From Nitrospirota bacterium (GTDB taxonomy: Bacteria > Nitrospirota > Thermodesulfovibrionia > Thermodesulfovibrionales > Dissulfurispiraceae), in assembly GCA_004321915.1 (NCBI GenBank), contig SCQE01000084.1:1-32554 (forward strand): DNA of 32,554 nt, given 5' to 3'. The notes below the pieces were generated by a model. It had not been told where the DNA came from and made no database searches. It saw only the letters and a list, made by a program, of their open reading frames with translations. Position 1 is the first letter of the stretch. Each line of letters begins with the position of its first letter. The position numbers and the translations under genes were made by a program. Below are positions 3,940 to 21,174 of this stretch, piece by piece.

Positions 3940-4602
3940 TTATACTGGTTTAGTTGCTTCGTGTATATAAACGTTTCCGAAACAGAGGGGTGTTTTTTTG
4001 CAGACCGTAAAGCCCGTCCCCTCTATCAACCGGCAGAGCTCCTCCGGACTGTGAAAGGCCTCGATGGATTCTGCAAGGTACAAATAGGCGTCCCTTTCGG
4101 AAAACATGGCCGCAATCGCAGGCATGACCCGCTTTAGATAGAAACTGTACGGTACCCTTATAAAAGAGCGGGGCATCGAAAATTCGAGGAGCACGATCCT
4201 GCCGCCTTTTTTCATCACGCGAAATATTTCATCAAGGGCCTTTGCGGTCTCGTGCATATTGCGTATGCCGAAGGCGCATGTCAGCCCGTCGAAGGTTCCC
4301 GTCCTGAAAGGGAGCGAATAGACGGTGCCTGCGGCCAACTGATATATGGGATTTCGGATCTTTTGTTTTGCCCTCGCAAGCATATTAAGGCTCAGGTCGA
4401 AGCCTACGACACGGGCCCCTTTTCCGAGGATGCCGCTTGCGCTGTCGCCTGTGCCTGTTGCAAGGTCCAGCACAAGCATATCTTTTGACGGAGCAAGTTT
4501 TCCGACCATCCTTCTTCTCCACCAGATATCGAGACAGGCGGAGAAGAGGCGGTTCAGGAAGTCATAGCGTTCGTCGATACCGTCAAATAATGTTTTCCCC
4601 AT
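3940..4602 (-). CDS. ubiE: Demethylmenaquinone/ubiquinone C-methyltransferase
   Basis: A 220-residue class I SAM-dependent methyltransferase of the UbiE/MenG family. It shows the family N-terminal FDGIDERYDFLNRLFS block, SAM motif I VLDLATGTGD, the GFDLSLNMLARA motif and the CAFGIRNMHE segment. It is expected to methylate the quinone ring, making menaquinone in an anaerobe. The ATG shares its A with the TAA stop of the preceding NuoG-like gene (TAATG), so translation is probably coupled. That places quinone synthesis next to an NADH-oxidising complex. The N-terminus is slightly shorter than in many homologues but keeps the core. Confidence 0.9.
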   Translation of the reverse strand: MGKTLFDGIDERYDFLNRLFSACLDIWWRRRMVGKLAPSKDMLVLDLATGTGDSASGILGKGARVVGFDLSLNMLARAKQKIRNPIYQLAAGTVYSLPFRTGTFDGLTCAFGIRNMHETAKALDEIFRVMKKGGRIVLLEFSMPRSFIRVPYSFYLKRVMPAIAAMFSERDAYLYLAESIEAFHSPEELCRLIEGTGFTVCKKTPLCFGNVYIHEATKPV

Positions 4603-7064
4603 TAAGCCGGTTCTATTCTCACCGGCACGAGGGGAATGCCTCCATTCACGGCAGGATAGGTAAGCGTGTTGACCTTGGCATGTGCGAAATGTATCGGCAC
4701 GAATACCGTTTTTTCCGGCACCTCGTTCGAGATGATCGCCTTAAGGAGGATCTCCCCCCTTTTCGAAACGACCTTAACGAAGCTCTCGTTTTTGATCTTG
4801 TATTTCTCCGCATCGGCCGGGCTCAATTCCAGATACGCATCCGAGACCACGGAATCGAGGTTTCGCGAAAGGGATGAGAGCGCACCCGAATGTTGAAGTA
4901 TATTGGCGGTCACGAGAAGCATCGGGAATTCGTTGTTCGAATTCTCTATCAGCTCGTATAACGCAGGGTTGAATGAAAGTTTTAACTCTTTTTTGCCGAG
5001 GGCGGAAAGTCTTTCGTTGACCTGAGCGGTTATCTCCTTGAGAGAATTCAGCCCTAAATCTTTGCCCATGGCCTTGGAGAGCCTCAGCAATATTTCCCAG
5101 TCAGGGACCGCTTCTCCGGTCTCCTTAACGATTTTATTTATCTTTTGAACAGCGCCCGTAGCGGACATAAAGGTCCCGTCCTTCTCCGCCCAACTGCATG
5201 CCGGCAGCACAACATCGGCGAGCTTTGCGGTGTCGGTAAGGAAAATATCCTGCACCACAAGCAGCTCCATGCTCTTGAGCGTTTTTTCGACGGTAGTAAC
5301 GTCGTGGAAAGTGACCAGCGGATTTTCTCCCATTATGTACAAGGCCTTAAGGCTTCCGTCGTTGGCATAAAGCATCTCCTGCATTTCTTTGCCCTGCCCT
5401 GCCGGTCTTACCCCTGCGGACCACATGCCGAGGGTGTTCGAAAATTCTGCGGGGATCTGCAAACTACCGGGCCCATCGCCTAGAAGCATTACAAGATTGG
5501 CGCCAGCAAGCATCGTGTTAAGGCTTTTTATGTTTTCGGAGGCGCCCGATGTCATAGCAACCAATCTGCTTTTTGCAGAGGCATACTCGCGTGCAAGGTT
5601 GCGTATCTCGTCTTCGGAAACCCCTGTTATGGCTGAAACGGCCGAAGGAGTATAATTCTTGAGAGAGCTTTCGAGGGCGACGAAATTTTCTATGCCTTGC
5701 GCTTTTTCTTTGTCGTAAAGTCCTTCGTCGATAATGACCTTCATCATGCCGTTCAGGAGCGCCACGCCTGTTCCGGGCACCAGACGCAGCCATTGGCTGC
5801 TGTTTCTGACGAGTTTTGTTTCCTTCGCATCCGCCACCGCGAGATACGACCCGTTGTTCTTGGCGAGTATGAAATTCAACCCCCATACCGGCATGGCCGA
5901 TGTTATGTCAGACTCTATTACCAACAGGAACTTGGCGTCGAGCGGGGCCTCCCACCCGATAGGCAGGAAATCCGAACCGAAAGCCGCTTCCATGGCCTTG
6001 TGCGCCTTTGCGTAACCGAAGCGCGCTGCCGAATCTATGTTGTCTGTCCCGACAGCTTCGCGCATGAATTTCTGGAGCATGAAGTTATCTTCTATAGAAC
6101 ATCTTTGAGAGCCTATGGCCCCTACGGCCGACGGCCCGTGTTTTTCGATCACACCGCTGATGCGTTCTGCCACATATTTGAGGGCCTCGTCCCATGAAGC
6201 TTGTACCAGATTGCCGTCCTTTCTTATCAGCGGGGTCTTGAGCCTGTTTTCCGAATAAATATAATCGAACCCGTATCTGCCTTTTCCGCACAGATTGCCG
6301 TCGTTTATCCCAATACCTTCCTTGCCCCTGCCCCTGACGATCTTTCCCTGACGAATGCTCAGGTTTGTGGTGCAGCCGCAGCCGCAGTAAGGGCATACGA
6401 TCGCTTCTTCATTCATATACCAGACCCTCGACATGAACCTGTAGGTCTTGCTGCCCAGAGCGCCCACCGGACATACATCTATGCACTGACCGCAGAATTC
6501 GCAGTCGAGCGTCTCTTCAAACGCGGGGCTTATCTTGGTTTTGAATCCCCTGCCTATGAAATTAATGGCCCCCACTCCCTGATGGTCCTGACATATCCTC
6601 ACACACAGACCGCATAGTATGCAGCGGTTAGGGTTGCGTTCGACAACAGGGGCGTCGAGGCGTTCGGGCTCATTTTTCCTTGAGGCCGAAAACCTGTTGC
6701 GGGTCGAGCCGTACTTGTAGGCCAAATCCTGCAGTTTGCACTCGCCGGCCTTGTCGCAGACAGGACAGTCGAGCGGGTGGTGCAACAGCAGAAGTTCGAG
6801 GACAGCCTTGCGCGACTTGGCCACGCCCGGAGTCTCGGTATGCACGATCATACCTTCCCTGATCTGCGTGGAGCATGCAGCGGACAGCCCTTTCTGGCCC
6901 TCTACTTCCACAACGCACATCCTGCAGCCGCCGTAAGGCTTAAGCCTGCTGTCGTAGCAAAGGTTGGGTATATATATCCCGTTTTTCAGCGCGGCCTGAA
7001 GTATGGTTGCGCCTCTTTCAGCTTTTACGGTTTTCCCGTTTATCGTAAGTTCAACAAGATTCAT
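4602..7064 (-). CDS. NuoG/FdhA-like iron-sulfur molybdopterin-fold subunit
   Basis: This 820-residue subunit has an N-terminal [2Fe-2S] domain (Cys36, 47, 50, 64) and a His-Cys3 [4Fe-4S] site (His96, Cys100, 103, 109). Two ferredoxin clusters follow (Cys148/151/154/158 and 188/191/194/198), then a further [4Fe-4S] site (Cys224/227/231/259) and a molybdopterin-oxidoreductase fold with a C-terminal dinucleotide-binding domain. In NAD-linked formate dehydrogenases the motif after the VD/ID-xxAR segment carries catalytic Cys or Sec. Here the aligned segment is AARFGYAKAH, with Gly350 at that place and Tyr instead of the following His. It is therefore more likely an electron-transfer NuoG-type subunit than a formate dehydrogenase. 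It follows nuoF by 3 bases and overlaps ubiE by one. Confidence 0.88.
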   Translation of the reverse strand: MNLVELTINGKTVKAERGATILQAALKNGIYIPNLCYDSRLKPYGGCRMCVVEVEGQKGLSAACSTQIREGMIVHTETPGVAKSRKAVLELLLLHHPLDCPVCDKAGECKLQDLAYKYGSTRNRFSASRKNEPERLDAPVVERNPNRCILCGLCVRICQDHQGVGAINFIGRGFKTKISPAFEETLDCEFCGQCIDVCPVGALGSKTYRFMSRVWYMNEEAIVCPYCGCGCTTNLSIRQGKIVRGRGKEGIGINDGNLCGKGRYGFDYIYSENRLKTPLIRKDGNLVQASWDEALKYVAERISGVIEKHGPSAVGAIGSQRCSIEDNFMLQKFMREAVGTDNIDSAARFGYAKAHKAMEAAFGSDFLPIGWEAPLDAKFLLVIESDITSAMPVWGLNFILAKNNGSYLAVADAKETKLVRNSSQWLRLVPGTGVALLNGMMKVIIDEGLYDKEKAQGIENFVALESSLKNYTPSAVSAITGVSEDEIRNLAREYASAKSRLVAMTSGASENIKSLNTMLAGANLVMLLGDGPGSLQIPAEFSNTLGMWSAGVRPAGQGKEMQEMLYANDGSLKALYIMGENPLVTFHDVTTVEKTLKSMELLVVQDIFLTDTAKLADVVLPACSWAEKDGTFMSATGAVQKINKIVKETGEAVPDWEILLRLSKAMGKDLGLNSLKEITAQVNERLSALGKKELKLSFNPALYELIENSNNEFPMLLVTANILQHSGALSSLSRNLDSVVSDAYLELSPADAEKYKIKNESFVKVVSKRGEILLKAIISNEVPEKTVFVPIHFAHAKVNTLTYPAVNGGIPLVPVRIEPA

Positions 7065-7067
7065 CGT

Positions 7068-8942
7068 CTATTCCTCCTTGCCTGCCATTGCTACCGTTTT
7101 GTTCGAGGCGCTGACCCACTGTTCCAGAAGCTGGTCTCTCATCCCGCGCGGCCCTATCTTCACACAATCGAATTTGCAGGCCTCGTAGCAGGAACGGCAC
7201 TGAACGCAGAGCGACTGGTCAACACGGTGCGCCTGTTTCTTCTCTCCGGTAATCGCCTTTTGAGGGCAGACCCTTTTACACGCGCCGCAGCCTTTGCATT
7301 TTTCCTCTTCGATATAGAAGGTGCAGAGGTCTTTGCATACCCCTGTCCTGCACCATTTGTCCCTTATGTGCTCTTCGAATTCGCTCCTGAAATATTTTAT
7401 CGAGGTCAGGACGGGGTTAGGCGAAGTCTGCCCCAAGCCGCAGAGAGAGGTCTTTATGATCTCTTTGGATATGTCCTCGATGAGTTCGATGTCGCCTTCC
7501 TCTCCCTCACCTTTTGTTATCTTGTCCAAAAGGTCTTCCAGCACCGTGTTGCCTATCCTGCACGGCGGGCATTTGCCGCACGACTCTTCTGTCGTGAATT
7601 CAAGGAAGAACTTCGATACGCTGACCATGCAGTTGAGATCGTTCATTACCACCATTCCGCCCGAACCTATAATAGCTCCGGTTTTAACGATGTCCTCAAA
7701 AGTAACGGGCGTGTCTATCAGCGATTCGGGTATGCACCCGCCCGAAGGCCCGCCGAGCTGCACTGCCTTGAATTTTCTTCCCTTGGGAACGCCGCCGCCT
7801 ATATCGAATATTATTTTTCTGAGCGGGATGCCCATAGGCACCTCGATAAGTCCTATATTGTTTATCGCGCCGCTGAGCGCAAAGACCTTGGTGCCGGTCG
7901 ATTTCTCCGTTCCGAGGCTTGTGTACCATGAAGCGCCGTTCAGGATTATCTGAGGTATGTTTGCGAAGGTCTCGACATTGTTCAGGACCGTGGGCTTGTC
8001 CCATAGGCCCTTGACTGCCGAACGCCAGAATTTGGGCCTCGGCATACCGCGCTTGCCCTCTATCGACCTCATCAAAGCGGTCGCCTCGCCGCAGACGAAT
8101 GCGCCCGCGCCCTGATAAATCTCGATGTCGAAATTGAATCCCGAACCGAGGATATTGTCGCCTAAAAGGCCGAACTCCTTGGCCTGATCTATCGCTATCT
8201 GGAGTCTTTGGACTGCAAGGGGATACTCGGCCCTGACATAGATATATCCTTTGTTTGCTCCGATCGCTCTTGCTCCTATCAGCATGCCTTCGAGCACTAC
8301 ATGCGGGTCGCCTTCCATAATGCTTCTGTCCATAAAGGCCCCGGGGTCGCCCTCATCGCCGTTGCAGATGATATATTTTTCGTCGCCCTTGACCTTTCCG
8401 CTCAGTTCCCATTTGAGTCCTGTGGGGAACCCTGCTCCGCCGCGTCCCCTCAGCCCCGAGCGTTTCATCTCGTCTATGATCTGCTCGGGTGTCATTTCGT
8501 TCAGCGCCTTGGCAGCGGCCATATAGCCGTCCCTGGCAATGTACTCTTCTATCTTTTCCGGGTCTATAAGGCCTTTGTTCCGCAATGCCCGCAAGACCTG
8601 AAGGCTGAAGAACGGTATGTCCTTCATAAGAGGTATCGCGCTCTTCTTCGTAAGTTCTTTGTACATGAGCCGCTCTACGGGCCGTCCCTTGATAAAATGC
8701 TCTTCGATTATCACAGGAACATCGCTGACCGTTACCTTCTCGTAAAAGATGTCATCGGGGAATACCGTCATCACCGGGCCCTGCGCGCAGAAGCCGTTGC
8801 AGCCGGTGATCACCACGTTTACCTCATGGGACATGCCCCTGTTCTTCAACTCATCGACAAGCGCGTCTTTTATTTTCAGGCTGCCGCCGGCCATACAACC
8901 GGTCCCGCCGCACAGCATAACACTCGCACGATAATTTTCCAT
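7068..8942 (-). CDS. nuoF: NuoF/HndC-like NADH-binding flavoprotein subunit
   Basis: A 624-residue FMN/NAD(H)-binding subunit. Its parts in order are an N-terminal thioredoxin-like [2Fe-2S] domain (Cys11, 16, 48, 52), the FMN/NADH site (GRGGAGFPTGLKW at about 166-178 and CNGDEGDPGAFMDR at about 193-206), a SLBB region, the N3 [4Fe-4S] site (Cys455, 458, 461, 501) and a C-terminal 2x[4Fe-4S] ferredoxin domain (Cys549/552/555/559 and 579/582/585/589). This extended form is typical of HndC/HydB-type soluble, often electron-bifurcating, complexes rather than respiratory complex I. AGGAGGA precedes the ATG. Partners are the NuoE fusion and HndB-like genes upstream and the NuoG-like gene downstream. 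Confidence 0.92.
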   Translation of the reverse strand: MENYRASVMLCGGTGCMAGGSLKIKDALVDELKNRGMSHEVNVVITGCNGFCAQGPVMTVFPDDIFYEKVTVSDVPVIIEEHFIKGRPVERLMYKELTKKSAIPLMKDIPFFSLQVLRALRNKGLIDPEKIEEYIARDGYMAAAKALNEMTPEQIIDEMKRSGLRGRGGAGFPTGLKWELSGKVKGDEKYIICNGDEGDPGAFMDRSIMEGDPHVVLEGMLIGARAIGANKGYIYVRAEYPLAVQRLQIAIDQAKEFGLLGDNILGSGFNFDIEIYQGAGAFVCGEATALMRSIEGKRGMPRPKFWRSAVKGLWDKPTVLNNVETFANIPQIILNGASWYTSLGTEKSTGTKVFALSGAINNIGLIEVPMGIPLRKIIFDIGGGVPKGRKFKAVQLGGPSGGCIPESLIDTPVTFEDIVKTGAIIGSGGMVVMNDLNCMVSVSKFFLEFTTEESCGKCPPCRIGNTVLEDLLDKITKGEGEEGDIELIEDISKEIIKTSLCGLGQTSPNPVLTSIKYFRSEFEEHIRDKWCRTGVCKDLCTFYIEEEKCKGCGACKRVCPQKAITGEKKQAHRVDQSLCVQCRSCYEACKFDCVKIGPRGMRDQLLEQWVSASNKTVAMAGKEE

Positions 8943-9459: not shown

Positions 9460-10320
9460 CTATTGATAATCTTTAAGCAGGTCCATCGTTGCCACGGGGT
9501 TGACCGAACCGTGCGTGTCCTTATTTATTACAACGACCGGCGCAAGTCCGCAGGCCCCCAGACAACGCACGGATTCGAGCGAAAATTTCTTGTCCTCGGT
9601 AACGCTGCCGACATCGATATGAAGGGACTCGGTGAGCTTCTTTACGATTTCTTCCGCGCCTTTTACATAGCACGCCGTTCCGAGGCATATCCTGATATTA
9701 TGTTTGCCCCTCGGCTTCATCGTGAAGTAGGAATAAAATGAGACCACGCCGTGGACTTCGCTCAGCGGGATCCTGAGCCCCCTCGCTATATGCCTGAGGA
9801 CCACCGGCGGCAGGTAGCCCACAAGTTCCTGCGCTTCCTGAAGCACGGGTATGAGGCTGCCCGGCCTGTTCCTGCACTTCTTGATGATCTCGTCCAGTTT
9901 TGCAGCGACCGCTTCCGTATAGTCTTCCACGCCCGGCTGGGGGGCCGCGCCGATTTTCTTCATCTCCATCGCCCGGGTAACGACATCCACAAGGATGGTG
10001 GGGGAGAAGGGTTTAGGCAGGTAATCTACAATCCTAAGACTCAGGGCCTCTCTTATGCTTTCTTGGGAAGGATATCCGGTTATTACCACTATATTTATAT
10101 CCGGGTTCTTTTTTCTGGCCTGCTTCATGAACTCTATGCCGTCCATCTCCGGCATTTTAATGTCCGTTATCACGAGATCATAGCTGTTTTTGTCGAGCAG
10201 GTCGAGGGCCTCTCTTGCAGAAGTGACCGTAGAAACCTTGTAGCCTTCCGGCGCGAGCACCTTCTCGCAGCTTTTCAGCACGATCTTTTCATCGTCAACA
10301 ACAAGGATATTGCCGTCCAT
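9460..10320 (-). CDS. Receiver domain fused to NuoE-like [2Fe-2S] subunit
   Basis: Residues 1-120 are a CheY-like receiver domain with the acidic pair Asp9/Asp10, the phosphoacceptor Asp53 (VITDIKMPEMDG), Thr81 and Lys103 (LPKPFSP). Residues 135-286 are a NuoE/HndA domain with a helical bundle (IPVLQEAQELVGYLPP) and a thioredoxin-like [2Fe-2S] site at Cys212, 217, 253 and 257. All residues needed for phosphorylation and for cluster binding are present. NuoE normally passes electrons from FMN to the other clusters, so the fusion suggests direct allosteric or assembly control by a phosphorelay. A second receiver fusion lies 31 bases upstream. No histidine kinase gene is in the window. Confidence 0.9.
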   Translation of the reverse strand: MDGNILVVDDEKIVLKSCEKVLAPEGYKVSTVTSAREALDLLDKNSYDLVITDIKMPEMDGIEFMKQARKKNPDINIVVITGYPSQESIREALSLRIVDYLPKPFSPTILVDVVTRAMEMKKIGAAPQPGVEDYTEAVAAKLDEIIKKCRNRPGSLIPVLQEAQELVGYLPPVVLRHIARGLRIPLSEVHGVVSFYSYFTMKPRGKHNIRICLGTACYVKGAEEIVKKLTESLHIDVGSVTEDKKFSLESVRCLGACGLAPVVVINKDTHGSVNPVATMDLLKDYQ

Positions 10321-11304: not shown

Positions 11305-11568
11305 TCAAGGTTTTTTTAGGATATCGTGCGTGCCCACTTTTCTCAGCACATAAAAATCACCGTCCAGTTCGAAGGTGAAGCGGTAATGATAGTCTATGTA
11401 GCCCTCCCATATGCCCCGAGTACCCTGAACAGGATGCAGATTCAGTGATGGATGGCCTGGATTGTTTAAAAGAAACCCTAACTGTTTGTCCGTTTTGTCT
11501 TTTATACCGGAAGGAAGTTTTTGATAGTCACGCTTGAATGTGCTGAGAATCCTCAGCTTCTTAGCCAT
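11305..11568 (-). CDS. RelE/ParE-superfamily toxin
   Basis: An 87-residue basic protein with the RelE-fold layout: FKRDYQKLPSGIKDKTDKQLGFL helices, then LNLHPVQGTRGIWEGYIDYHYRFTFELDGDFYVLRKVGTHDIL strands. It probably cleaves ribosome-bound mRNA, as members of the family do. It overlaps the upstream AbrB-type antitoxin gene by 16 bases and forms a two-gene operon with it. Confidence 0.8.
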   Translation of the reverse strand: MAKKLRILSTFKRDYQKLPSGIKDKTDKQLGFLLNNPGHPSLNLHPVQGTRGIWEGYIDYHYRFTFELDGDFYVLRKVGTHDILKKP

Positions 11569-11825
11569 TTTACAGCCTCGTCAGCCTTTTTGAATTCCTT
11601 TGAATCGCCCTTTTTCTTGGCAGCTTCAGCGTCTTTTTCGCCTTTCTGCCACTCATCCGTCCAGAAGTAGGCCTGAGCTTTATCCACGACAATGACCGGT
11701 CTTACAAGCAATGTGCCGTCTTTTTCATCTATCTGAAGGGTATCACCCACATTCACCTTAAGTTTTTTTCTCACGTCATCAGGTATCACTATCTGAAACT
11801 TGCTTTTGACTTTGACCAATGACAT
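11553..11825 (-). CDS. AbrB/SpoVT-type antitoxin
   Basis: A 90-residue protein with an N-terminal swapped-hairpin AbrB domain (KVKSKFQIVIPDDVRKKLKVNVGDTLQIDE) that binds DNA, and a charged helical C-terminus (DAEAAKKKGDSKEFKKADEAVKWL) expected to wrap the toxin. AAGGAGG precedes the ATG and a good promoter lies at 11858-11887. Such antitoxins usually autorepress their operon. Confidence 0.85.
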   Translation of the reverse strand: MSLVKVKSKFQIVIPDDVRKKLKVNVGDTLQIDEKDGTLLVRPVIVVDKAQAYFWTDEWQKGEKDAEAAKKKGDSKEFKKADEAVKWLRS

Positions 11826-12276: not shown

Positions 12277-13386
12277 ATGTGCAGACTTGCTGCGATAACA
12301 TCCGGAAGCTATTTTTCGCCTATGGAGCCGGTCTTAGCGCTCGAAACCATGAAAGAAGGCCATGACGGCTCCGGCCTCGGGCTTACCATGAAAGACCTCG
12401 GCGGAAGTTTCGAGTCCCTGAAAAAATACCCTATTCTTTCGGGTATAAGCTCAAAGGCCGGCGCGAAGGTGCTTGATTCCTACATGAAAAAGGAAGGCTT
12501 TAAACTCAAACATCTCTGGACACCGAAAATTAAATCTGTAAAAGGCATAGCAGCAAGGGAGCATTATTTCGCAAGGGCCTATGAGTATCCGGCCGCTTAC
12601 AAAAACAGGAGCATGGAGGAAAAAGAAGCCCTGCTGATGAATACTCGTCTGGCGCTCAGGAAAATAGGCGAGCCGGACCAGTCGATCTTCGTGTTCTCTT
12701 TCTATCCGGATGTGCTTACCTTAAAAGAGGTCGGGGACCCGCTCGAAGTGGCGGAATTTTTCGGCCTCGACAAGGACAATATAAAGGCAAAGATAATCCT
12801 GGCCCAGGGAAGGCAGAATACAAACTATGCAATCTATTTATATGCCTGCCATCCTTTCTTTATTCAGGGCTACTGTACGATGACGAACGGCGAGAATACG
12901 GCCTTCGTGCCTATACGCGAGTTCCTTTCGGGCCGCGGCCTTCCCGGATACATGGGATACAACAGCGACAGCGAGGTCTTTACTCACATCCTTCACTACA
13001 CGGCAAGGGAGTTGAAGTTTCCGCTCAAATACTACAAGGACGTAATAACCCCGATGAAGGACGCCGAAATCGCAAAGCGAAGCGATGCGGAGGCTGTAAG
13101 GCTTATGAAGAAAACCATGCGGCCGCTCTGCATCGACGGGCCCAACATGATAATAGGTTTTACCCCTGACGGGACCTGCTTTATGGTGCAAGACTCGAAG
13201 AAACTCAGGCCCGGCGTAGTGGGCGGAATAAAAGGCAGATATGCGTTGATGTCCGAGGAGTGCGGGGTCGACAGCGCAGTGCCTAAGCGGGACAGGACAC
13301 AAGACATATTCCCTATGAAATACGACATGGTCATCATTTCCCCGCAGGCAAAGGAGGTCAAGGTATGGAACCAGCTGCACGGTTAG
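12277..13386 (+). CDS. Glutamate synthase amidotransferase (class II) subunit
   Basis: This 369-residue protein corresponds to the N-terminal glutaminase domain of GltB as a separate gene. It begins MCRLAAIT, so removal of Met exposes the nucleophilic Cys2 that hydrolyses glutamine to give ammonia for the synthase subunit. Downstream features include EGHDGSGLGL and GRQNTNYAIYLYACHPF. The ATG has AGAGGA at 8 bases. It overlaps the next gene by 22 bases. Three-gene glutamate synthases of this kind are common in anaerobic bacteria and archaea. Confidence 0.9.
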   Translation: MCRLAAITSGSYFSPMEPVLALETMKEGHDGSGLGLTMKDLGGSFESLKKYPILSGISSKAGAKVLDSYMKKEGFKLKHLWTPKIKSVKGIAAREHYFARAYEYPAAYKNRSMEEKEALLMNTRLALRKIGEPDQSIFVFSFYPDVLTLKEVGDPLEVAEFFGLDKDNIKAKIILAQGRQNTNYAIYLYACHPFFIQGYCTMTNGENTAFVPIREFLSGRGLPGYMGYNSDSEVFTHILHYTARELKFPLKYYKDVITPMKDAEIAKRSDAEAVRLMKKTMRPLCIDGPNMIIGFTPDGTCFMVQDSKKLRPGVVGGIKGRYALMSEECGVDSAVPKRDRTQDIFPMKYDMVIISPQAKEVKVWNQLHG

Positions 13387-15026
13387 ACAGCAACCACAAG
13401 CTCACCGTAAAAGAGCTTCCATATATAATCCGCTGGCGCGACGACAGGTGTAAGCGCTGCGGCAGATGCACCGCGGTATGCCCTGTAAAGGCCATAGTCG
13501 CTGCGGTCAGAGTGCAGCGTTCTGTTCGCTCCGAAGGCGCAGTCCCTACACCGACCGCAAAAAGAACTATAGTGCATGTTGTGGAGCAGGTTACGGACAT
13601 AGAAAAATATTGCACGGGCTGCGGAACTTGCACTCTCGTCTGTCCGAACGAAGCCATAGAGCCTGAATTAAATCCCCAGAACAAATTCCTTCATTATAAG
13701 AATAAAGGCGGAGACGGATACAAAAGGGGCGGAAGGAGAAACGACCCCTCGATATCTACGCTCGACAAACTCAAATTCACAAGGATATCCATGCTCACGG
13801 ACCCGGCGCTCGATGCGGGCAGGCATGAGTTCAGGGTAAGGACGCTCTTGGGAAGGGTCCTTCCTCCCGAAGAGATGCCTCTTACACTCGTCAACGGAGA
13901 ACTTGTTGTGGACAAAAACAGCGGCAAGTTCATTCCTCCTGTCCGCGAGATATATCCGATAATGATAGGCAGCATGTCGGTCGGCGCGCTTTCGCCTCCG
14001 ATGTGGGAAGGCCTCGCGATGGGCATCTCGTACCTGAATGAGGTGGAGGGAATGCCTGTCGTAATGTGTTCGGGCGAAGGCGGCATGCCGCCGAGGCTCT
14101 TGAGGTCGAAGTATCTCAAATATTTCATCATACAGATAGCGTCGGGCTATTTCGGCTGGGACGAGATAATACATTCGCTTCCGCACATGGTCGAAGACCC
14201 GGCTGCCATAGAGATCAAATACGGACAGGGCGCAAAGCCCGGAGACGGCGGCCTTTTGATGGCGCAGAAGGTGCTTAAGCTTATCTCCGGGATCCGCGGC
14301 GTGCCGCAGTTTGTTGACCTTGCATCGCCGCCTACACACCAGACCAAATACTCCATCGAAGAGGCTGTTGCCAAGATGATACAGTCCATGTCTATGGCAT
14401 GGGGCTTCAGGGTCCCTGTGTATCCGAAGATCTCGGGCACCAAAACCGCAAAGGCGGTTTTGAATAACTTGGCCAGAAACCCTTATGCAGCGGCGCTTTC
14501 TATTGACGGCGAGGACGGCGGAACCGGCGCGGCGTACAATGTCTCGATGGACAAGATGGGACACCCGATCGCTTCAAACCTGCGCGAATGCTACCTTGAC
14601 CTTGTAAAGCAGGGCAAGCAGAACGAGCTTCCTTTAATCGCGGCAGGCGGTGTGGGCAAGAAAGGCAATTTGGCGGCCAATGCTGCGGCATTGATAATGC
14701 TCGGCGCATCGGCCGTATCTATCGGCAAATACATAATGCAGGCTGCGGCAGACTGTTTCGGAGACGAGTACAACCGCTGCAACCTCTGCAATACAGGAAA
14801 ATGTCCGCGCGGCATAACAACTCAAGACCCGAAGCTTTACAGGAGGCTCGACAGCGACAAGGTGGCCGAGCGTGTGGTCGAGGTGTTCAAGGCCGCAGAC
14901 GTCGAGCTTAAAAAGATATTCGCTCCTATGGGCAGAAGCACCGAACTGCCGATAGGCATGTCCGACGGCCTGAGCGTTGACGATCCGGCGATAGCGGAAA
15001 GGTTGGGTATAAGCTATGCGTGCTAA
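13365..15026 (+). CDS. gltB: Glutamate synthase FMN domain with N-terminal ferredoxin
   Basis: A 553-residue protein. Residues 20-100 are a 2x[4Fe-4S] ferredoxin module (Cys29/32/35/39 and Cys83/86/89/93) with a long insert between the clusters. Residues about 160-500 are the FMN-binding glutamate synthase barrel (GSMSVGALSPPMWEGLA, SIDGEDGGTGAA, PLIAAGGVGKKGNLAANAAAL) with the [3Fe-4S]-type Cys472, 475 and 480. It makes glutamate from 2-oxoglutarate and ammonia using reduced FMN. The added ferredoxins suggest ferredoxin as an electron source. AAAGGAGGT precedes the ATG. It overlaps its neighbours on both sides. Confidence 0.93.
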   Translation: MEPAARLDSNHKLTVKELPYIIRWRDDRCKRCGRCTAVCPVKAIVAAVRVQRSVRSEGAVPTPTAKRTIVHVVEQVTDIEKYCTGCGTCTLVCPNEAIEPELNPQNKFLHYKNKGGDGYKRGGRRNDPSISTLDKLKFTRISMLTDPALDAGRHEFRVRTLLGRVLPPEEMPLTLVNGELVVDKNSGKFIPPVREIYPIMIGSMSVGALSPPMWEGLAMGISYLNEVEGMPVVMCSGEGGMPPRLLRSKYLKYFIIQIASGYFGWDEIIHSLPHMVEDPAAIEIKYGQGAKPGDGGLLMAQKVLKLISGIRGVPQFVDLASPPTHQTKYSIEEAVAKMIQSMSMAWGFRVPVYPKISGTKTAKAVLNNLARNPYAAALSIDGEDGGTGAAYNVSMDKMGHPIASNLRECYLDLVKQGKQNELPLIAAGGVGKKGNLAANAAALIMLGASAVSIGKYIMQAAADCFGDEYNRCNLCNTGKCPRGITTQDPKLYRRLDSDKVAERVVEVFKAADVELKKIFAPMGRSTELPIGMSDGLSVDDPAIAERLGISYAC

Positions 15027-17445
15027 GAAAGGACAAGTCAGAAGTAAGAAGTCGGAAGTCAAAATAAAAAAGCCGACAGTCAGTATGAAGAAGAAAGAAG
15101 AAAAGATTATAGAGATAACCGGAACTAAGGCTGTTCTTCGCGGAAGTATCAACGGCGGCAGGGTGTCGTCCCGCATCCTCGAAGAACAGATACAGCAGGC
15201 TGTTCAGGAAGGCGCAAGAGAGCTCCACATCCAAGCCGACGGTCAGCACGGAATAGGCGGAAGGATATGGCCTAAAAATGAAACCGTAAAAATTTATGTA
15301 GAAGGTCCTGCAGGACAGAGGCTCGGCAGCATGGGCATGCCCGGCACAGAGATTGTGCTGAAGAACAGCTCCTCCGACGACGTGGGCTGGATAAACTGCG
15401 GCGCAAAGATAACCGTCTTGGGCGATGTGACCAACGGGGCCTTTAACGCAGCGGCTCAGGGAATACTCTATGTTCAGGGCAGCGGCGGCGCAAGATGCGA
15501 AACAATGACCAAGAGGAACCCGCGTTTTGAGCCTCCTCAATCGTGGTACTTCAGAAATGTTGGCGATTCTTTTGCCGAGTTCAAGGCAGGCGGCATTGCG
15601 GTCGTGTGCGGTGTCGATCCGAGAAATCCGGAAAATATCCTCGGCTATCGTCCATGCGTTGGAATGGTCGGAGGCACAATATATTTCAGGGGCCCGATTC
15701 AGGGCTACAGCGAGCGCGACGTGAAGCTGCTCGATCTCACGCCTCAGGACTGGGAATGGCTCACAACCAACATGAAGCCGTACCTCGAAGCAATCGACAG
15801 GATGTCCTATTACAAAGAGCTTACACGCTCGATGGACGACTGGAAAAAACTCATCGCATATACGCCGCAGGAAAAGGCAAAGAAAAGGCCTTTAAAGATA
15901 AGCACAAGCGAATTCAGAAAAAACAACTGGGAAAAGGCCGTAGGTCAGGGCGGCATATTTGCGGAATACCTCGACCACGATTTGACCATACTCCCTTACA
16001 TTACAACAGGCAAATTCAGAAGGAACAAACCGGTCTGGGCGAATGAAAAATATGCGCCGCCATGCGCTTACGCCTGCCCGACCTACATCCCGTCGCACAA
16101 ACGCGCAGCGCTTATCAGGGAAGGCAAGCTGAACGAGGCGCTCGAACTTGTGCTACAGTACAGCCCGCTTCCTGCAACGGTTTGCGGAGAAATATGTCCG
16201 AACCTCTGCATGACCAGCTGCACGAGAGGCCAGCTCGACAAGCCCCTTGCGATAGACAAATTAGGCAAGCTTTCGCTCGATCTGCCCGCCCCTAAAAAAG
16301 CTGCGGCTACGGGCCATAAGATTGCGATCATCGGAGGCGGCCCCGGCGGCATGAGCGCAGCGTGGCAGTTGGCGATAAAAGGGCACACCGTAGATCTTTA
16401 CGAGGCCTCGGCCAAACTCGGCGGAAAGTTAGAGCTATGCATACCGCATGAGAGGCTTCCGCGAGAGATTATAGAGAAAGAGACCGAACGGTTCAGGCAA
16501 CTCGGAATCAATTTGCACCTGAATACAAAGGTCACAAAAGAGCTGTTCGATAAAATATACAAAGACCATGAAGTGGTTGTTCTGGCCTGCGGCGCGCACC
16601 AGCCGAGAAAAGTCTCTTTCCCCGGCTCGGACGATATAGCCTCGGCTTACGAATTCCTCAGAGACATTAACCTCGGCAAACACCCGGATTTAAAGGGTAA
16701 GAAAGTCGTGATCATAGGTGCAGGTAATGTCGGCATGGACGTTGCATCGGAGGCATACAATTACGGCGCCGAATCTGTGACTGCCGTGGATATTCAGAAA
16801 CCGGCCGCCTTCGGCAAAGAGATGGATATAGCAAAGGCAAAAGGCACGCAGATAGCATGGCCGAAATTCACCGACAGGTTCGACAAAAAGGAAAGGAAGC
16901 TCATCTTCAAAGACGGCTCGTCCCTCGATGCGGATGTGGTGATAATGTCGATAGGCGATGTGCCGCAGCTCGATTTCCTCCCTGCGAGCGTACATAGCGA
17001 GCGCGGCTGGCTGACCGTCAATGACGACTTTCAGACCTCCGACGTAAAGGTCTATGCAATAGGCGATGTTACCGGACTCGGCCTTGTAACGCATGCTATC
17101 GGGCACGGAAGGCTGACAGCCGAAAACATACACTACCAGTTGATGCACGCCCCGAGACAGCCTGAAGCAAGACAGGTCATACCCTACGAGAGAATAAAGA
17201 CCGAATATTACGAGGCCTGCAAAACAGCCTTTTCGCCTGAGGAAGAAGGCAACAGATGTATGTCCTGCGCCACATGCCGCGATTGCCATATGTGCGAGGC
17301 CACCTGTTACTGGGACGCTATCACCCGCAACGACCTCGGAAACGGAAGGTATGAATATGTTGCGGACGATGAGAAATGCATAGGCTGCGGCTTCTGCGCC
17401 GGGATTTGCCCCTGCGGTGTATGGGAGATGACAGAGAATATTTAG
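15016..17445 (+). CDS. GXGXG domain-GltD-ferredoxin fusion of glutamate synthase
   Basis: An 809-residue fusion. Residues about 30-250 are the right-handed GXGXG helix domain of GltB (GAKITVLGDVTNGAFNAAAQ). Residues about 345-735 are a GltD/NfnB-like oxidoreductase with an Fe-S entry domain beginning at Cys350 (CAYACPTYIPSHKRA ... CGEICPNLC), an FAD site (GGGPGGMSAAW near 440) and an NAD(P) site (GAGNVGMDVAS near 567). Residues from 748 form a C-terminal ferredoxin with clusters starting at Cys748 and Cys788. It passes NAD(P)H electrons to the FMN subunit, possibly with ferredoxin. The first 23 residues are encoded partly by heptamer repeats, so Met24 (15085) is an alternative start; the RBS is weak for both. 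Confidence 0.9.
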   Translation: MRAKKGQVRSKKSEVKIKKPTVSMKKKEEKIIEITGTKAVLRGSINGGRVSSRILEEQIQQAVQEGARELHIQADGQHGIGGRIWPKNETVKIYVEGPAGQRLGSMGMPGTEIVLKNSSSDDVGWINCGAKITVLGDVTNGAFNAAAQGILYVQGSGGARCETMTKRNPRFEPPQSWYFRNVGDSFAEFKAGGIAVVCGVDPRNPENILGYRPCVGMVGGTIYFRGPIQGYSERDVKLLDLTPQDWEWLTTNMKPYLEAIDRMSYYKELTRSMDDWKKLIAYTPQEKAKKRPLKISTSEFRKNNWEKAVGQGGIFAEYLDHDLTILPYITTGKFRRNKPVWANEKYAPPCAYACPTYIPSHKRAALIREGKLNEALELVLQYSPLPATVCGEICPNLCMTSCTRGQLDKPLAIDKLGKLSLDLPAPKKAAATGHKIAIIGGGPGGMSAAWQLAIKGHTVDLYEASAKLGGKLELCIPHERLPREIIEKETERFRQLGINLHLNTKVTKELFDKIYKDHEVVVLACGAHQPRKVSFPGSDDIASAYEFLRDINLGKHPDLKGKKVVIIGAGNVGMDVASEAYNYGAESVTAVDIQKPAAFGKEMDIAKAKGTQIAWPKFTDRFDKKERKLIFKDGSSLDADVVIMSIGDVPQLDFLPASVHSERGWLTVNDDFQTSDVKVYAIGDVTGLGLVTHAIGHGRLTAENIHYQLMHAPRQPEARQVIPYERIKTEYYEACKTAFSPEEEGNRCMSCATCRDCHMCEATCYWDAITRNDLGNGRYEYVADDEKCIGCGFCAGICPCGVWEMTENI
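15034..15061 (+). repeat. Four tandem 7-bp repeats (GAAGTCA type)
   Basis: CAAGTCA, GAAGTAA, GAAGTCG and GAAGTCA follow one another without gaps, inside the first codons of the GXGXG-GltD gene. Seven bases is not a multiple of three, so gain or loss of one unit shifts the frame upstream of Met24. Confidence 0.75.
17385..17411 (+). repeat. 27-bp direct repeat, copy 1 (in gltD-like 3' end)
   Basis: This segment encodes CGFCAGICP of the last ferredoxin cluster. The same 27 bases recur without mismatch at 17781-17807, with different flanks. Confidence 0.9.
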
Positions 17446-18250: not shown

Positions 18251-19138
18251 ATGAGACATTTAAGTCCTTTGCGATATCCGGGCGGAAAGAGTGTTTTGGC
18301 TAATTTCTTGACAAATATAATTGACTTAAATGATCTCAGAGGGTGTGCGTATTTTGAGCCCTATGCGGGTGGGGCAGGGGCTGCCTTGAGTCTCGTTAGA
18401 GATGATGTTGTTTCCGAAATATATCTGAACGACGCCGATGACCGTATTTACGCATTTTGGCGTTCAGTCCAGCTTTATCCAGAGCGGTTTATTGAGAGGA
18501 TTATTACAGTACCGCTTACAATTGAAGAATGGTACCGGCAACATGAAATCTGTTCGAATACTTCCAAATACTCACAGTTTGACGTTGGATTCGCAACTTT
18601 TTTTATGAACAGATGTAATCGCTCTGGTGTGTTGAGCGGCTCAGGTCCGATTGGCGGATATGAGCAGCGAGGCAAATGGCGAATTGACGTACGGTTCAAT
18701 CGTGAAGGCCTTTCACAACGCATAATCGCCCTGAGCCGCTATCGAGGGCGTATTCATGTGTCATGCAAGGATGCCATAGCTTTTCTAAAAACGAGTCTTC
18801 CCCGTGGACGCGGAAGGGATCGCAATTTCATCTACCTTGATCCGCCCTATGTGAACAACGGGCAGCGCCTTTATCTTAATGCATATAGCGCTAATGATCA
18901 CGTATTACTAGCTAAGTATCTGTGCGATCAACGGTCTTTGCCATGGGTCGTATCTTACGATGACAGTGGATTAATACGAGAACTTTACACATCTCTAAAG
19001 ATTGCTCTCCTTCCTATAAAATATACGCTTCAACAGAAGCGCTCAGCCCATGAGTTAATTATTGCCCCGCATCACCTCTCGATGCCTTCAGCATGCAGGT
19101 TGGGCGGTCGTGAGAGTTTTTTGCGGAAAATTGCATAA
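18251..19138 (+). CDS. D12-class N6-adenine DNA methyltransferase
   Basis: A 295-residue Dam-like enzyme with the order-alpha motifs: PLRYPGGK (residues 6-13, SAM binding), FEPYAGGAGAALSL (about 35-48) and the catalytic DPPY at 197-200 (FIYLDPPYVNNGQR). It transfers a methyl group from SAM to adenine N6. The recognition sequence cannot be read from the protein. GGAGA lies before the ATG. It is followed after nine bases by the ParB-like gene. Together with the nuclease-like third gene it looks like the modification part of a restriction-like system rather than an orphan housekeeping Dam. Confidence 0.93.
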   Translation: MRHLSPLRYPGGKSVLANFLTNIIDLNDLRGCAYFEPYAGGAGAALSLVRDDVVSEIYLNDADDRIYAFWRSVQLYPERFIERIITVPLTIEEWYRQHEICSNTSKYSQFDVGFATFFMNRCNRSGVLSGSGPIGGYEQRGKWRIDVRFNREGLSQRIIALSRYRGRIHVSCKDAIAFLKTSLPRGRGRDRNFIYLDPPYVNNGQRLYLNAYSANDHVLLAKYLCDQRSLPWVVSYDDSGLIRELYTSLKIALLPIKYTLQQKRSAHELIIAPHHLSMPSACRLGGRESFLRKIA

Positions 19139-19147
19139 GGAGGCCAC

Positions 19148-20251
19148 ATGACTACAGCAAGTGCAATCAAACTATTGCCTGTGAATACCCTTCACTTCGA
19201 CAAGAAGAATCCGCGACTTGCCGAATACGGCATATCACTAAAATCGATTGATGAGGATATCATTACTGTGCTGTGGGATGCAATGGATGTCAGAGAATTG
19301 GTTCAATCAATTGCAGCCAGTGGTTTTTTTCCGCATGAACCTCTCATTGTGACGGAAGAAGAAGGTAAATATATAGTCATAGAGGGAAACCGACGTTTAG
19401 CTGCCGTTAAAGTGCTCCTTCATGAAACGATTGCTGAAGGCAATGGATGGGATATTCCCGAAATATCGGAAGAAGCAAAAAACGAGCTCGGAGAACTGCC
19501 GGTTACATTTGCACAGCGTGAGGAATCTTGGCGGTATCTTGGATTCAAACATGTCAATGGACCGGCAAAGTGGAGTAGCTATGCTAAGGCCAAATATATT
19601 GCCGACGTACACAAAAGCTACAGAATTCCTCTTGACGATATTGCTAACCAGATTGGGGACAGACATCGGACAGTGCAGCGTCTATACAGGGGCTTAATGG
19701 TTATCGAGCAAGCGGAGAGGGAAAAAGTTTATCACAGAGATAACAGGTTCCGCCAGCGGTTCGCCTTTTCACATCTTTATACTGGATTGGATTATGAAGG
19801 AATCAGCACCTTCATAAGCTTGAAAGCAGAAGACGAGGAAGCAGAATCTCCCGTCCCAATAGATAAGATAGAACAGCTTGGAGAGTTGTGTGTCTGGCTT
19901 TACGGCAGCAAGTCTGACAAGCTTCCACCAGTTGTGGAATCACAAAATCCGCATCTCCGTCAACTGGATGCTGTCCTTAAGAGTCGTGAAGCAGTTGCGG
20001 CGCTTAGGGGTGGGGAAGGCCTTGAGTCGGCTTATGAAATTAGCAGACCAAAGGCTGTGATTTTCGAAGAAGCTCTAATGGAAGCTAAACGTGAGTTGAC
20101 ACGCGCACGCGCCCATTTAACAGAAGGATATGATAAATCTGAAGACTTGCTGAGACTCGCTGGAACGGTCGCTGAGCTTGCTGACGACCTTTACAGCGAG
20201 ATGGTTCGTAAGCGTAATCCTGAAAAGAAGCGTATAACAGAGGAAAAGTGA
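19148..20251 (+). CDS. ParB/sulfiredoxin-fold N-terminal domain protein
   Basis: A 367-residue protein. Residues about 8-95 form a ParB-N domain (LPVNTLHFDKKNPRL ... VRELVQSIAASGFFPHEPLIV ... YIVIEGNRRLAAVKVL), with EGNRRLAAV (79-87) replacing the GERRxRA box of ParB. ParB-N domains bind CTP/ATP or act as nucleases. A helix-turn-helix-like region (IPLDDIANQIGDRHRTVQRLYRG) follows near 170-195, and the C-terminal third is charged and helical. It is not accompanied by ParA, so plasmid partition is unlikely. Its tight packing between a methyltransferase and a nuclease-like gene suggests target recognition or regulation. Its stop overlaps the next start (TGATG). Confidence 0.85.
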   Translation: MTTASAIKLLPVNTLHFDKKNPRLAEYGISLKSIDEDIITVLWDAMDVRELVQSIAASGFFPHEPLIVTEEEGKYIVIEGNRRLAAVKVLLHETIAEGNGWDIPEISEEAKNELGELPVTFAQREESWRYLGFKHVNGPAKWSSYAKAKYIADVHKSYRIPLDDIANQIGDRHRTVQRLYRGLMVIEQAEREKVYHRDNRFRQRFAFSHLYTGLDYEGISTFISLKAEDEEAESPVPIDKIEQLGELCVWLYGSKSDKLPPVVESQNPHLRQLDAVLKSREAVAALRGGEGLESAYEISRPKAVIFEEALMEAKRELTRARAHLTEGYDKSEDLLRLAGTVAELADDLYSEMVRKRNPEKKRITEEK

Positions 20252-21174
20252 TGTTCAAATTACCGAATCCTCCGTCACCTCAGGCAGACGTTCATGAACT
20301 TGCAGACTTTGCTGAACTCTTAAGTTGGGATCGGGGTACAGTATCTGAGCGTGAGTTAGTTGCCTATCTTGGCCGAGTTGACGATAACGATAGTAATATT
20401 GGCTGTGATGACAATGATGATGAAAATGCTGAAACGCTTGATGAGGTAATGAACGAGATTGAACGACGGGATGGCGCATGTGGCCGTGGTTATCCATTTC
20501 AGCTCTCACGCGAGGGGACAGTACTTCATTACGACAACGCGCTCGAAGATGATCAACGTTCATTGGTTTATAGATATCTTCTGCTCAGCACACGGCTTAA
20601 CATGAGGGATAATCGAGTTCACGAAAATATCGATGGAGCTAGTCTTCTTGAAAGCCTTTCAGCACATGTATTAAGAATCTATCTCGGAGCGGCAAGGGCA
20701 AAGGCTATAGTATTTGGCACTTCGATTGGCGGTGGATTTGCAGAACGCGTTGAAAATCTTTGTAGAGATTTATGTGAGGGAGCGGGATTTAGAAGTTTAG
20801 ATAATGCATCGGTGCAAGCCAACGATGACAAGCTCGATACAGTGGCTTGGATCCCTTTCTCTGATTGTTTGCCTGGACAACTTATTATTTTTGGTCAGTG
20901 CAAGACCGGAACAAATTGGGATGAGCTTGTTACACAGCTTCAACCAATAGATTTTGTCAAACGTTGGATGCGTGAGCCAATTCTTGTCGATCCTATTCGG
21001 GCATTCTGTATTTCTGAGGCTGCAGATAGGACGCGGTGGCGCAGCACATGTGTATCTGCAGGCATTCTTCTCGATCGCTGTCGTATAGTGGATAACAGCG
21101 ACGGTATTGAGTCAGCCACGGAAGAGCGCATAAGAAAATGGACGACTGCCGCGAAATTGTCTGTAAAATTCTAA
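20251..21174 (+). CDS. Putative PD-(D/E)XK nuclease of a restriction-like island
   Basis: A 307-residue protein. The N-terminal half has an acidic linker (DDNDSNIGCDDNDDENAE). The C-terminal half contains ERVENLC (Glu166), DDKLDTVAW (Asp193/Asp196) and GQLIIFGQCKTGTNWDE (Gln216-Cys-Lys218). That spacing fits a PD-(D/E)XK fold with a Q-x-K active site, seen in some restriction and recombination nucleases. It is the likely effector of the cassette. ATG 20251 overlaps the ParB-like stop and has AGAGG upstream; GTG 20248 is an alternative. No named family could be assigned from memory. Confidence 0.65.
   Translation: MFKLPNPPSPQADVHELADFAELLSWDRGTVSERELVAYLGRVDDNDSNIGCDDNDDENAETLDEVMNEIERRDGACGRGYPFQLSREGTVLHYDNALEDDQRSLVYRYLLLSTRLNMRDNRVHENIDGASLLESLSAHVLRIYLGAARAKAIVFGTSIGGGFAERVENLCRDLCEGAGFRSLDNASVQANDDKLDTVAWIPFSDCLPGQLIIFGQCKTGTNWDELVTQLQPIDFVKRWMREPILVDPIRAFCISEAADRTRWRSTCVSAGILLDRCRIVDNSDGIESATEERIRKWTTAAKLSVKF

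Follow-up and report, generated by a model that had tools for sequence, protein, structure and literature searches.

Analysis of a 32,554-nucleotide contig from a Nitrospirota bacterium (SCQE01000084.1; the whole stretch, referred to below as the window) uncovered a gene that joins a response-regulator receiver domain (REC) to a [2Fe-2S] subunit, here called REC-BfuC. The fusion is present in 77 genomes from 17 families of one Nitrospirota class, Thermodesulfovibrionia. On balance we favor, with modest confidence, a reading in which this protein would serve as BfuC in a Bfu-type module for NADH/ferredoxin input, with a kinase-phosphorylated receiver that modulates electron flow or docking. The usual targets of response regulators are transcription, second messengers, and partner proteins. 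With the receiver incorporated into a bioenergetic enzyme and the kinase travelling with it, sensed redox state would act on electron flux directly, quickly, and reversibly.

The fusion gene and its enzyme module

The gene (Table 1) is a single uninterrupted frame with an ATG start and without a stop or N, and a canonical ribosome-binding site (Shine-Dalgarno, AAGGAGGACAAAGGATG) lies 5′ of the receiver's own start. The Pfam domains PF00072 (Response_reg; E 3e-30, 110/111 profile positions) and PF01257 (2Fe-2S_thioredx; E 3e-49, 144/145 profile positions) cover the two halves nearly completely. The receiver has the acidic pair, phospho-Asp, Thr/Ser, and Lys that mark a phosphorylatable domain; these residues (D9, D10, D53, T81, K103) and the cluster cysteines (C212, C217, C253, C257) are all located where the original prediction had placed them. 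In an AlphaFold2 model both domains fold, residues 124–132 have a pLDDT <50, and how the receiver sits against the Fe-S domain is not reliably predicted.

Residue and identity statistics were taken from an alignment of 78 fusion sequences. The four cluster cysteines are invariant (78/78), and mean pairwise identity is 55% for the receiver vs. 63% for the Fe-S half. Mean identity falls to 22% over linker residues 120–137, and the spacing from K103/P104 to G154 is 50–53 residues in 69 of the 78 fusions. Judged from this alignment, the receiver is under strong constraint and the length of the linker is fixed. Eroding receivers were also observed, with T81A at locus L156, D53N at L159, and the entire active site gone at L062 and L063.

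Table 1 Features of the fusion locus in the window.
Feature	Position	Strand	Basis or remark
REC-BfuC fusion, 286 aa	9460..10320	-	PF00072 + PF01257; catalytic and cluster residues all present
Receiver domain, residues 5–114; D9, D10, D53, T81, K103	9979..10308	-	D53 in 75/78 orthologues
Inter-domain linker, residues 115–142	9895..9978	-	Variable sequence, near-constant length
BfuC/HydC-type [2Fe-2S] thioredoxin-like domain, residues 143–286	9463..9894	-	Best PDB matches HydC
Thioredoxin-like [2Fe-2S] ferredoxin, 127 aa	9059..9442	-	Adjoins fusion in nearly all loci
BfuB, HydB-type: N-terminal 2Fe-2S, FMN/NADH domain, C-terminal 4Fe-4S	7068..8942	-	PDB matches
BfuA, NuoG/formate-dehydrogenase-like, catalytic Cys-His -> Gly-Tyr	4602..7064	-	Alignment
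MenG/UbiE menaquinone methyltransferase	3940..4602	-	TIGR01934, 199 bits vs. cut-off 158
REC + GcvH-like protein, 258 aa	10352..11128	-	Phospho-Asp conserved, lipoyl Lys not

The best structural matches of the Fe-S half are HydC chains (7t2r_C and 8a6t_C, 152 bits), with NuoE at about 99 bits or less. BfuB matches HydB (7t2r_B) over its full length with 804 bits, vs. 365 bits to complex I NuoF. It contains an N-terminal thioredoxin-like domain, NADH_4Fe-4S, and two C-terminal 4Fe-4S motifs, and is co-linear with HydB over 592 residues; its cysteine motifs predict Fe-S clusters beyond those of non-bifurcating NuoF (N-terminal 2Fe-2S and C-terminal ferredoxin-like). Since a BfuB nearest to HydB and an Fe-S half nearest to HydC are marks of the Bfu family (PMC9304861), the subunit is assigned as BfuC. 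By these comparisons, the “NuoE” half of the fusion is more precisely the BfuC (HydC) of a Bfu-type (bifurcation-type) module. The original prediction of an intact NuoE therefore holds as to the intact [2Fe-2S] domain and fails as to the subunit: HydB and HydC are far better matches than NuoF and NuoE, and in the window's genome the standard complex I has a separate, true NuoE-F-G (L209:9095–13539), so that REC-BfuC is rejected there as a canonical complex I NuoE.

The closest solved structures for BfuB and the BfuC half are the bifurcating hydrogenases HydABC and HydABCSL (PDB 7t2r, 7q4v, 8a6t, 7p5h). Unlike the module described here, these lack a receiver, and the A subunit here is FDH/NuoG-like, without the hydrogenase H-cluster domain. 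BfuA shares its architecture and Fe-S domains with the alpha subunit of NAD-dependent formate dehydrogenase (PDB 6tg9, 9wxb), whose ARVCHSP aligns to ARFGYAK in BfuA, the active-site Cys/Sec and His being gone. Because Gly-Tyr replaces the catalytic Cys-His, an active formate dehydrogenase is ruled out and BfuA fits the role of an electron conduit. The next gene, menG, shares a single base with the 3′ end of the BfuA gene. From the nuo and menG neighbors we infer that menaquinone would be the third substrate of the module, and its coupled bifurcation or confurcation with NADH and ferredoxin is putative.

Distribution and origin of the fusion

A cross-genome search for the REC plus NuoE-like architecture, proposed along with the original prediction, recovered full-length fusions from 75 of the 117 class members sampled, and a separate search added two (G008 and G016) to give the total of 77. 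Four of the carriers are single-contig assemblies (G006, G035, G044, G284). The fusion is absent from all 179 Nitrospirota genomes outside the class, and a fusion profile recovered none from 395 Desulfobacterota genomes (the phylum of G343) or 398 Bacillota genomes (the phylum of G344); rare fusions elsewhere, beyond the sampled Desulfobacterota and Bacillota, are possible. A mobile, plasmid, or phage origin was rejected, as no plasmid or phage record carries the fusion; the sole plasmid match covering >80% of the REC-BfuC query proved to be a response regulator with 26% identity. The Fe-S halves of the fusions form one clade (SH-aLRT 90), and so do their receivers in the receiver tree, one copied receiver apart. 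Because both halves are each confined to one clade in this way, the trees indicate that the fusion arose once, in the class Thermodesulfovibrionia.

Genomic context and the kinase cassette

Gene-order maps of ~80 loci revealed a recurrent cassette that comprises a histidine kinase, DRTGG, an anti-sigma-type ATPase, DRTGG, PHP, an ATPase, a free receiver, an NtrC-type regulator, REC-GcvH, REC-BfuC, ferredoxin, BfuB, and BfuA, with the NtrC-type regulator missing at many loci. In the near-complete genome G054, the operon reads nuoA-B-C-D-kinase-REC-[REC-BfuC]-Fd-BfuB-BfuA-DRTGG-ATPase-DRTGG-PHP-ATPase-nuoH-I-J-K-L-M-N, the Bfu module replacing NuoEFG. The closest other NuoF-like protein of this genome is only 49% identical to canonical NuoF, and from this operon REC-BfuC is the obvious candidate for the NuoE of complex I. 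The same replacement of NuoEFG by BfuABC in the middle of the nuo operon was found in sister lineages. In the window's genome, the Bfu module lies on one contig (C4) and a complete nuoA to N with its own nuoEFG on another (C95), while in G050 both input modules are encoded consecutively in one operon. The sister Nitrospirota lineage f23 encodes DRTGG/ATPase/PHP genes and an unfused BfuC-Fd-BfuB-BfuA within the nuo operon. Because these signaling genes accompany the unfused module, they were probably tied to the enzyme before the fusion. Two further arrangements were observed: at L044:14776–18828 and similar loci, a heme-sensor-type kinase, DRTGG, anti-sigma-type ATPase, DRTGG, PHP, and ATPase track Bfu/nuo loci, and at L058 the cassette ATPase has itself gained a receiver.

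Cassette-type kinases, defined by E at most 1e-80, which is a threshold and not a strict orthology test, occur in 73 of the 77 fusion genomes. The four genomes without one are G022, G014, G023, and G198; in G022 the kinase may be off the contig, because its PHP gene sits at a contig edge. The other three are the genomes of the only D53-less fusions, an association with a Fisher's exact p of 5e-5. Two of them, G014 and G023, belong to one genus, and the co-loss of Asp53 and kinase therefore amounts to two independent cases. Beside its cassette, G023 still has a soluble kinase that is short and diverged. The CxxCH motif is a mark of c-type heme, and it occurs in the sensor region of nearly all full-length cassette kinases; the G054 kinase has CX4CH only.

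The receivers of the cassette also resemble one another. In the window's genome, the three cassette receivers found (those of REC-BfuC and REC-GcvH and the free receiver) have in common an 'SC' pair in alpha1 that 25 further receivers encoded there do not have, and the pair is usual in these cassette receivers across the class. In G050, the cassette ATPase carries a copy of the REC-BfuC receiver, 82% identical to it. Together, the kinase-linked cassette and the correlated erosion of kinase and phospho-Asp make phosphorelay input the likely purpose of the conserved receiver, in agreement with what was first proposed for this gene from its sequence. This correlation supports a predicted phosphorylation of Asp53 by the cassette kinase; any effect on electron flow is putative.

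The companion REC-GcvH protein forms one clade and is better conserved than the REC of REC-BfuC. Its receiver is intact in all 57 orthologues having that region, and the PF01597 (GCV_H) match was found in the orthologue at L044. No conserved Lys is present at the GcvH lipoyl site in 58 orthologues. The protein is therefore rejected as a lipoyl-carrying GcvH, the resemblance being one of domain only, and with the lipoyl Lys lost this domain looks structural.

Proposed role of the receiver and relation to known systems

In the mechanism that we propose, the cassette histidine kinase, in most cases with a periplasmic c-type-heme sensor and thus probably reporting periplasmic redox state, would phosphorylate Asp53. 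The phosphorylated receiver would then make altered contacts, with the alpha4-beta5-alpha5 face and the fixed-length linker as the presumed route, and these contacts would raise or lower electron transfer by the Bfu module, or its docking. Electrons from NADH and ferredoxin would end in menaquinone, directly or via complex I. Two observations count against parts of this scheme. The kinase cassette of the window's genome occupies a separate contig (C132, L207:2232–5882) and its kinase has no sensor domain, which weighs on the kinase link. In three genomes of one genus (G024, G015, G028), REC-BfuC lies directly 5′ of a menaquinone methyltransferase gene (L046, L053, L064) and BfuB/BfuA are elsewhere in the genome (L210–L212), which weighs on the link to the module. 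The small number of lineages with co-loss, the diverged kinase of G023, the non-strict kinase threshold, and the unreliable domain placement in the predicted model count against it as well.

The receiver could instead be a docking or assembly module, to complex I, REC-GcvH, or a kinase complex, with phosphorylation mattering little or not at all. The conserved linker length, the presence of REC-GcvH as a conserved neighbor, and the three fusions that hold the receiver domain despite loss of the phospho-Asp would all agree with such a role. However, the phosphorylation site is complete in 75 of 78 sequences, Asp loss accompanies kinase loss or erosion, and a pure docking domain is not expected to keep Asp, Thr, and Lys so strictly, and we regard this explanation as unlikely.

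Information might also flow in the reverse direction, the Fe-S subunit reporting the NADH/ferredoxin redox state to the cassette through a change in receiver phosphorylation or in the activity of the kinase or phosphatase, with transcription through the NtrC-type regulator as the output. The cassette does contain an NtrC, a free receiver, and two ATPase-domain proteins, and the DRTGG/ATPase/PHP genes also stand beside the unfused module in the sister lineages. Yet response regulators normally take their input at the receiver and act through the domain fused to it, the Fe-S domain here retains every feature of a working subunit and is the sole NuoE-like partner in the G054 nuo operon, and the loci without NtrC are many. 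These points make reverse flow distinctly improbable. We find it very unlikely that the receiver serves as a phosphate sink or competitor, tuning how the kinase signals to its other receivers (free receiver, NtrC, REC-GcvH) without acting directly on the enzyme: several cassette receivers with a common alpha1 signature would suit a sink, but it would need no covalent attachment to a redox subunit, no fixed linker, and no retention across 17 families. A frameshift, an assembly join, or a chance event in one contig, any of which would have undone the original prediction, can be dismissed with near certainty: chance receiver junctions are conceivable in principle because the window's genome holds ~150 receiver domains, but both halves and the operon context are conserved across the 77 genomes, single-contig assemblies included.

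A more specific form of the phosphorelay reading is that a two-component kinase whose heme sensor is periplasmic directly controls electron entry into complex I, or into a Bfu-type menaquinone reductase, through the built-in receiver. We put this forward tentatively, as a possibility with the balance somewhat against it. If it is true, genomes with two input modules would make a post-translational choice between NADH-only and NADH-plus-ferredoxin input. More generally, the class-wide fusion and its accompanying kinase suggest that cells may tune an electron-entry gate by phosphorylation, besides gene switching.

The Bfu family of electron-bifurcating enzymes (Schut et al. 2022, PMC9304861) includes the Nuo-Bfu enzymes of Nitrospirae, a 14-subunit complex I with Bfu input, with BfuB in clade 39. 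Nuo-Bfu combines BfuC and BfuA with a HydB-type BfuB that has additional Fe-S clusters at both termini, as in the module reported here, and its BfuABC replaces NuoEFG in the nuo operon, as in the sister lineage (L194–L202) and in G054 but not in the window's genome. Unlike Nuo-Bfu, BfuC here has an N-terminal receiver, and in most fusion genomes complex I is complete, with its own NuoE-F-G, and the module lies next to it or elsewhere. The main text of PMC9304861 mentions no receiver or response regulator.

A second precedent is the mycobacterial orphan single-domain response regulator Rv3143 (MSMEG_2064), which binds Nuo and has been proposed to modulate its activity (PMC9274095). It is likewise a CheY-like protein tied to complex I, with its gene near or in the nuo operon; unlike REC-BfuC, it is unfused and acts in trans on NuoD, alongside a canonical NuoEFG and not a Bfu module (PMC9274095). 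Rv3143 is reportedly not phosphorylated by the kinases tried or by acetyl phosphate, according to work cited in the discussion of PMC9274095. Thus the Bfu enzyme family and a Nuo-bound regulator acting in trans are known, whereas a search of the open-licence literature found no description of a REC-NuoE or REC-HydC fusion, including the class-wide cis fusion to BfuC with its kinase cassette. The fusion would make the idea behind Rv3143, a receiver modulating Nuo, testable in a single polypeptide, and the lost-Asp variants, the eroded-kinase variants, and the unfused sister lineage provide natural controls.

Other genes were noted in the window. A MazE/AbrB-type antitoxin and, after it, a RelE-like 87-aa protein (11305–11825, minus strand) probably form a toxin-antitoxin pair. 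Divergent glutamate-synthase-type genes on the plus strand (12277–17445) encode a glutamine amidotransferase, an FMN synthase domain, and a GltB-alpha-type protein and FAD oxidoreductase with ferredoxin motifs. Further along the same strand (18251–21174), a D12-class adenine DNA methyltransferase precedes a ParB-like protein and an unknown one, and the three could form a restriction-modification or defence cassette.
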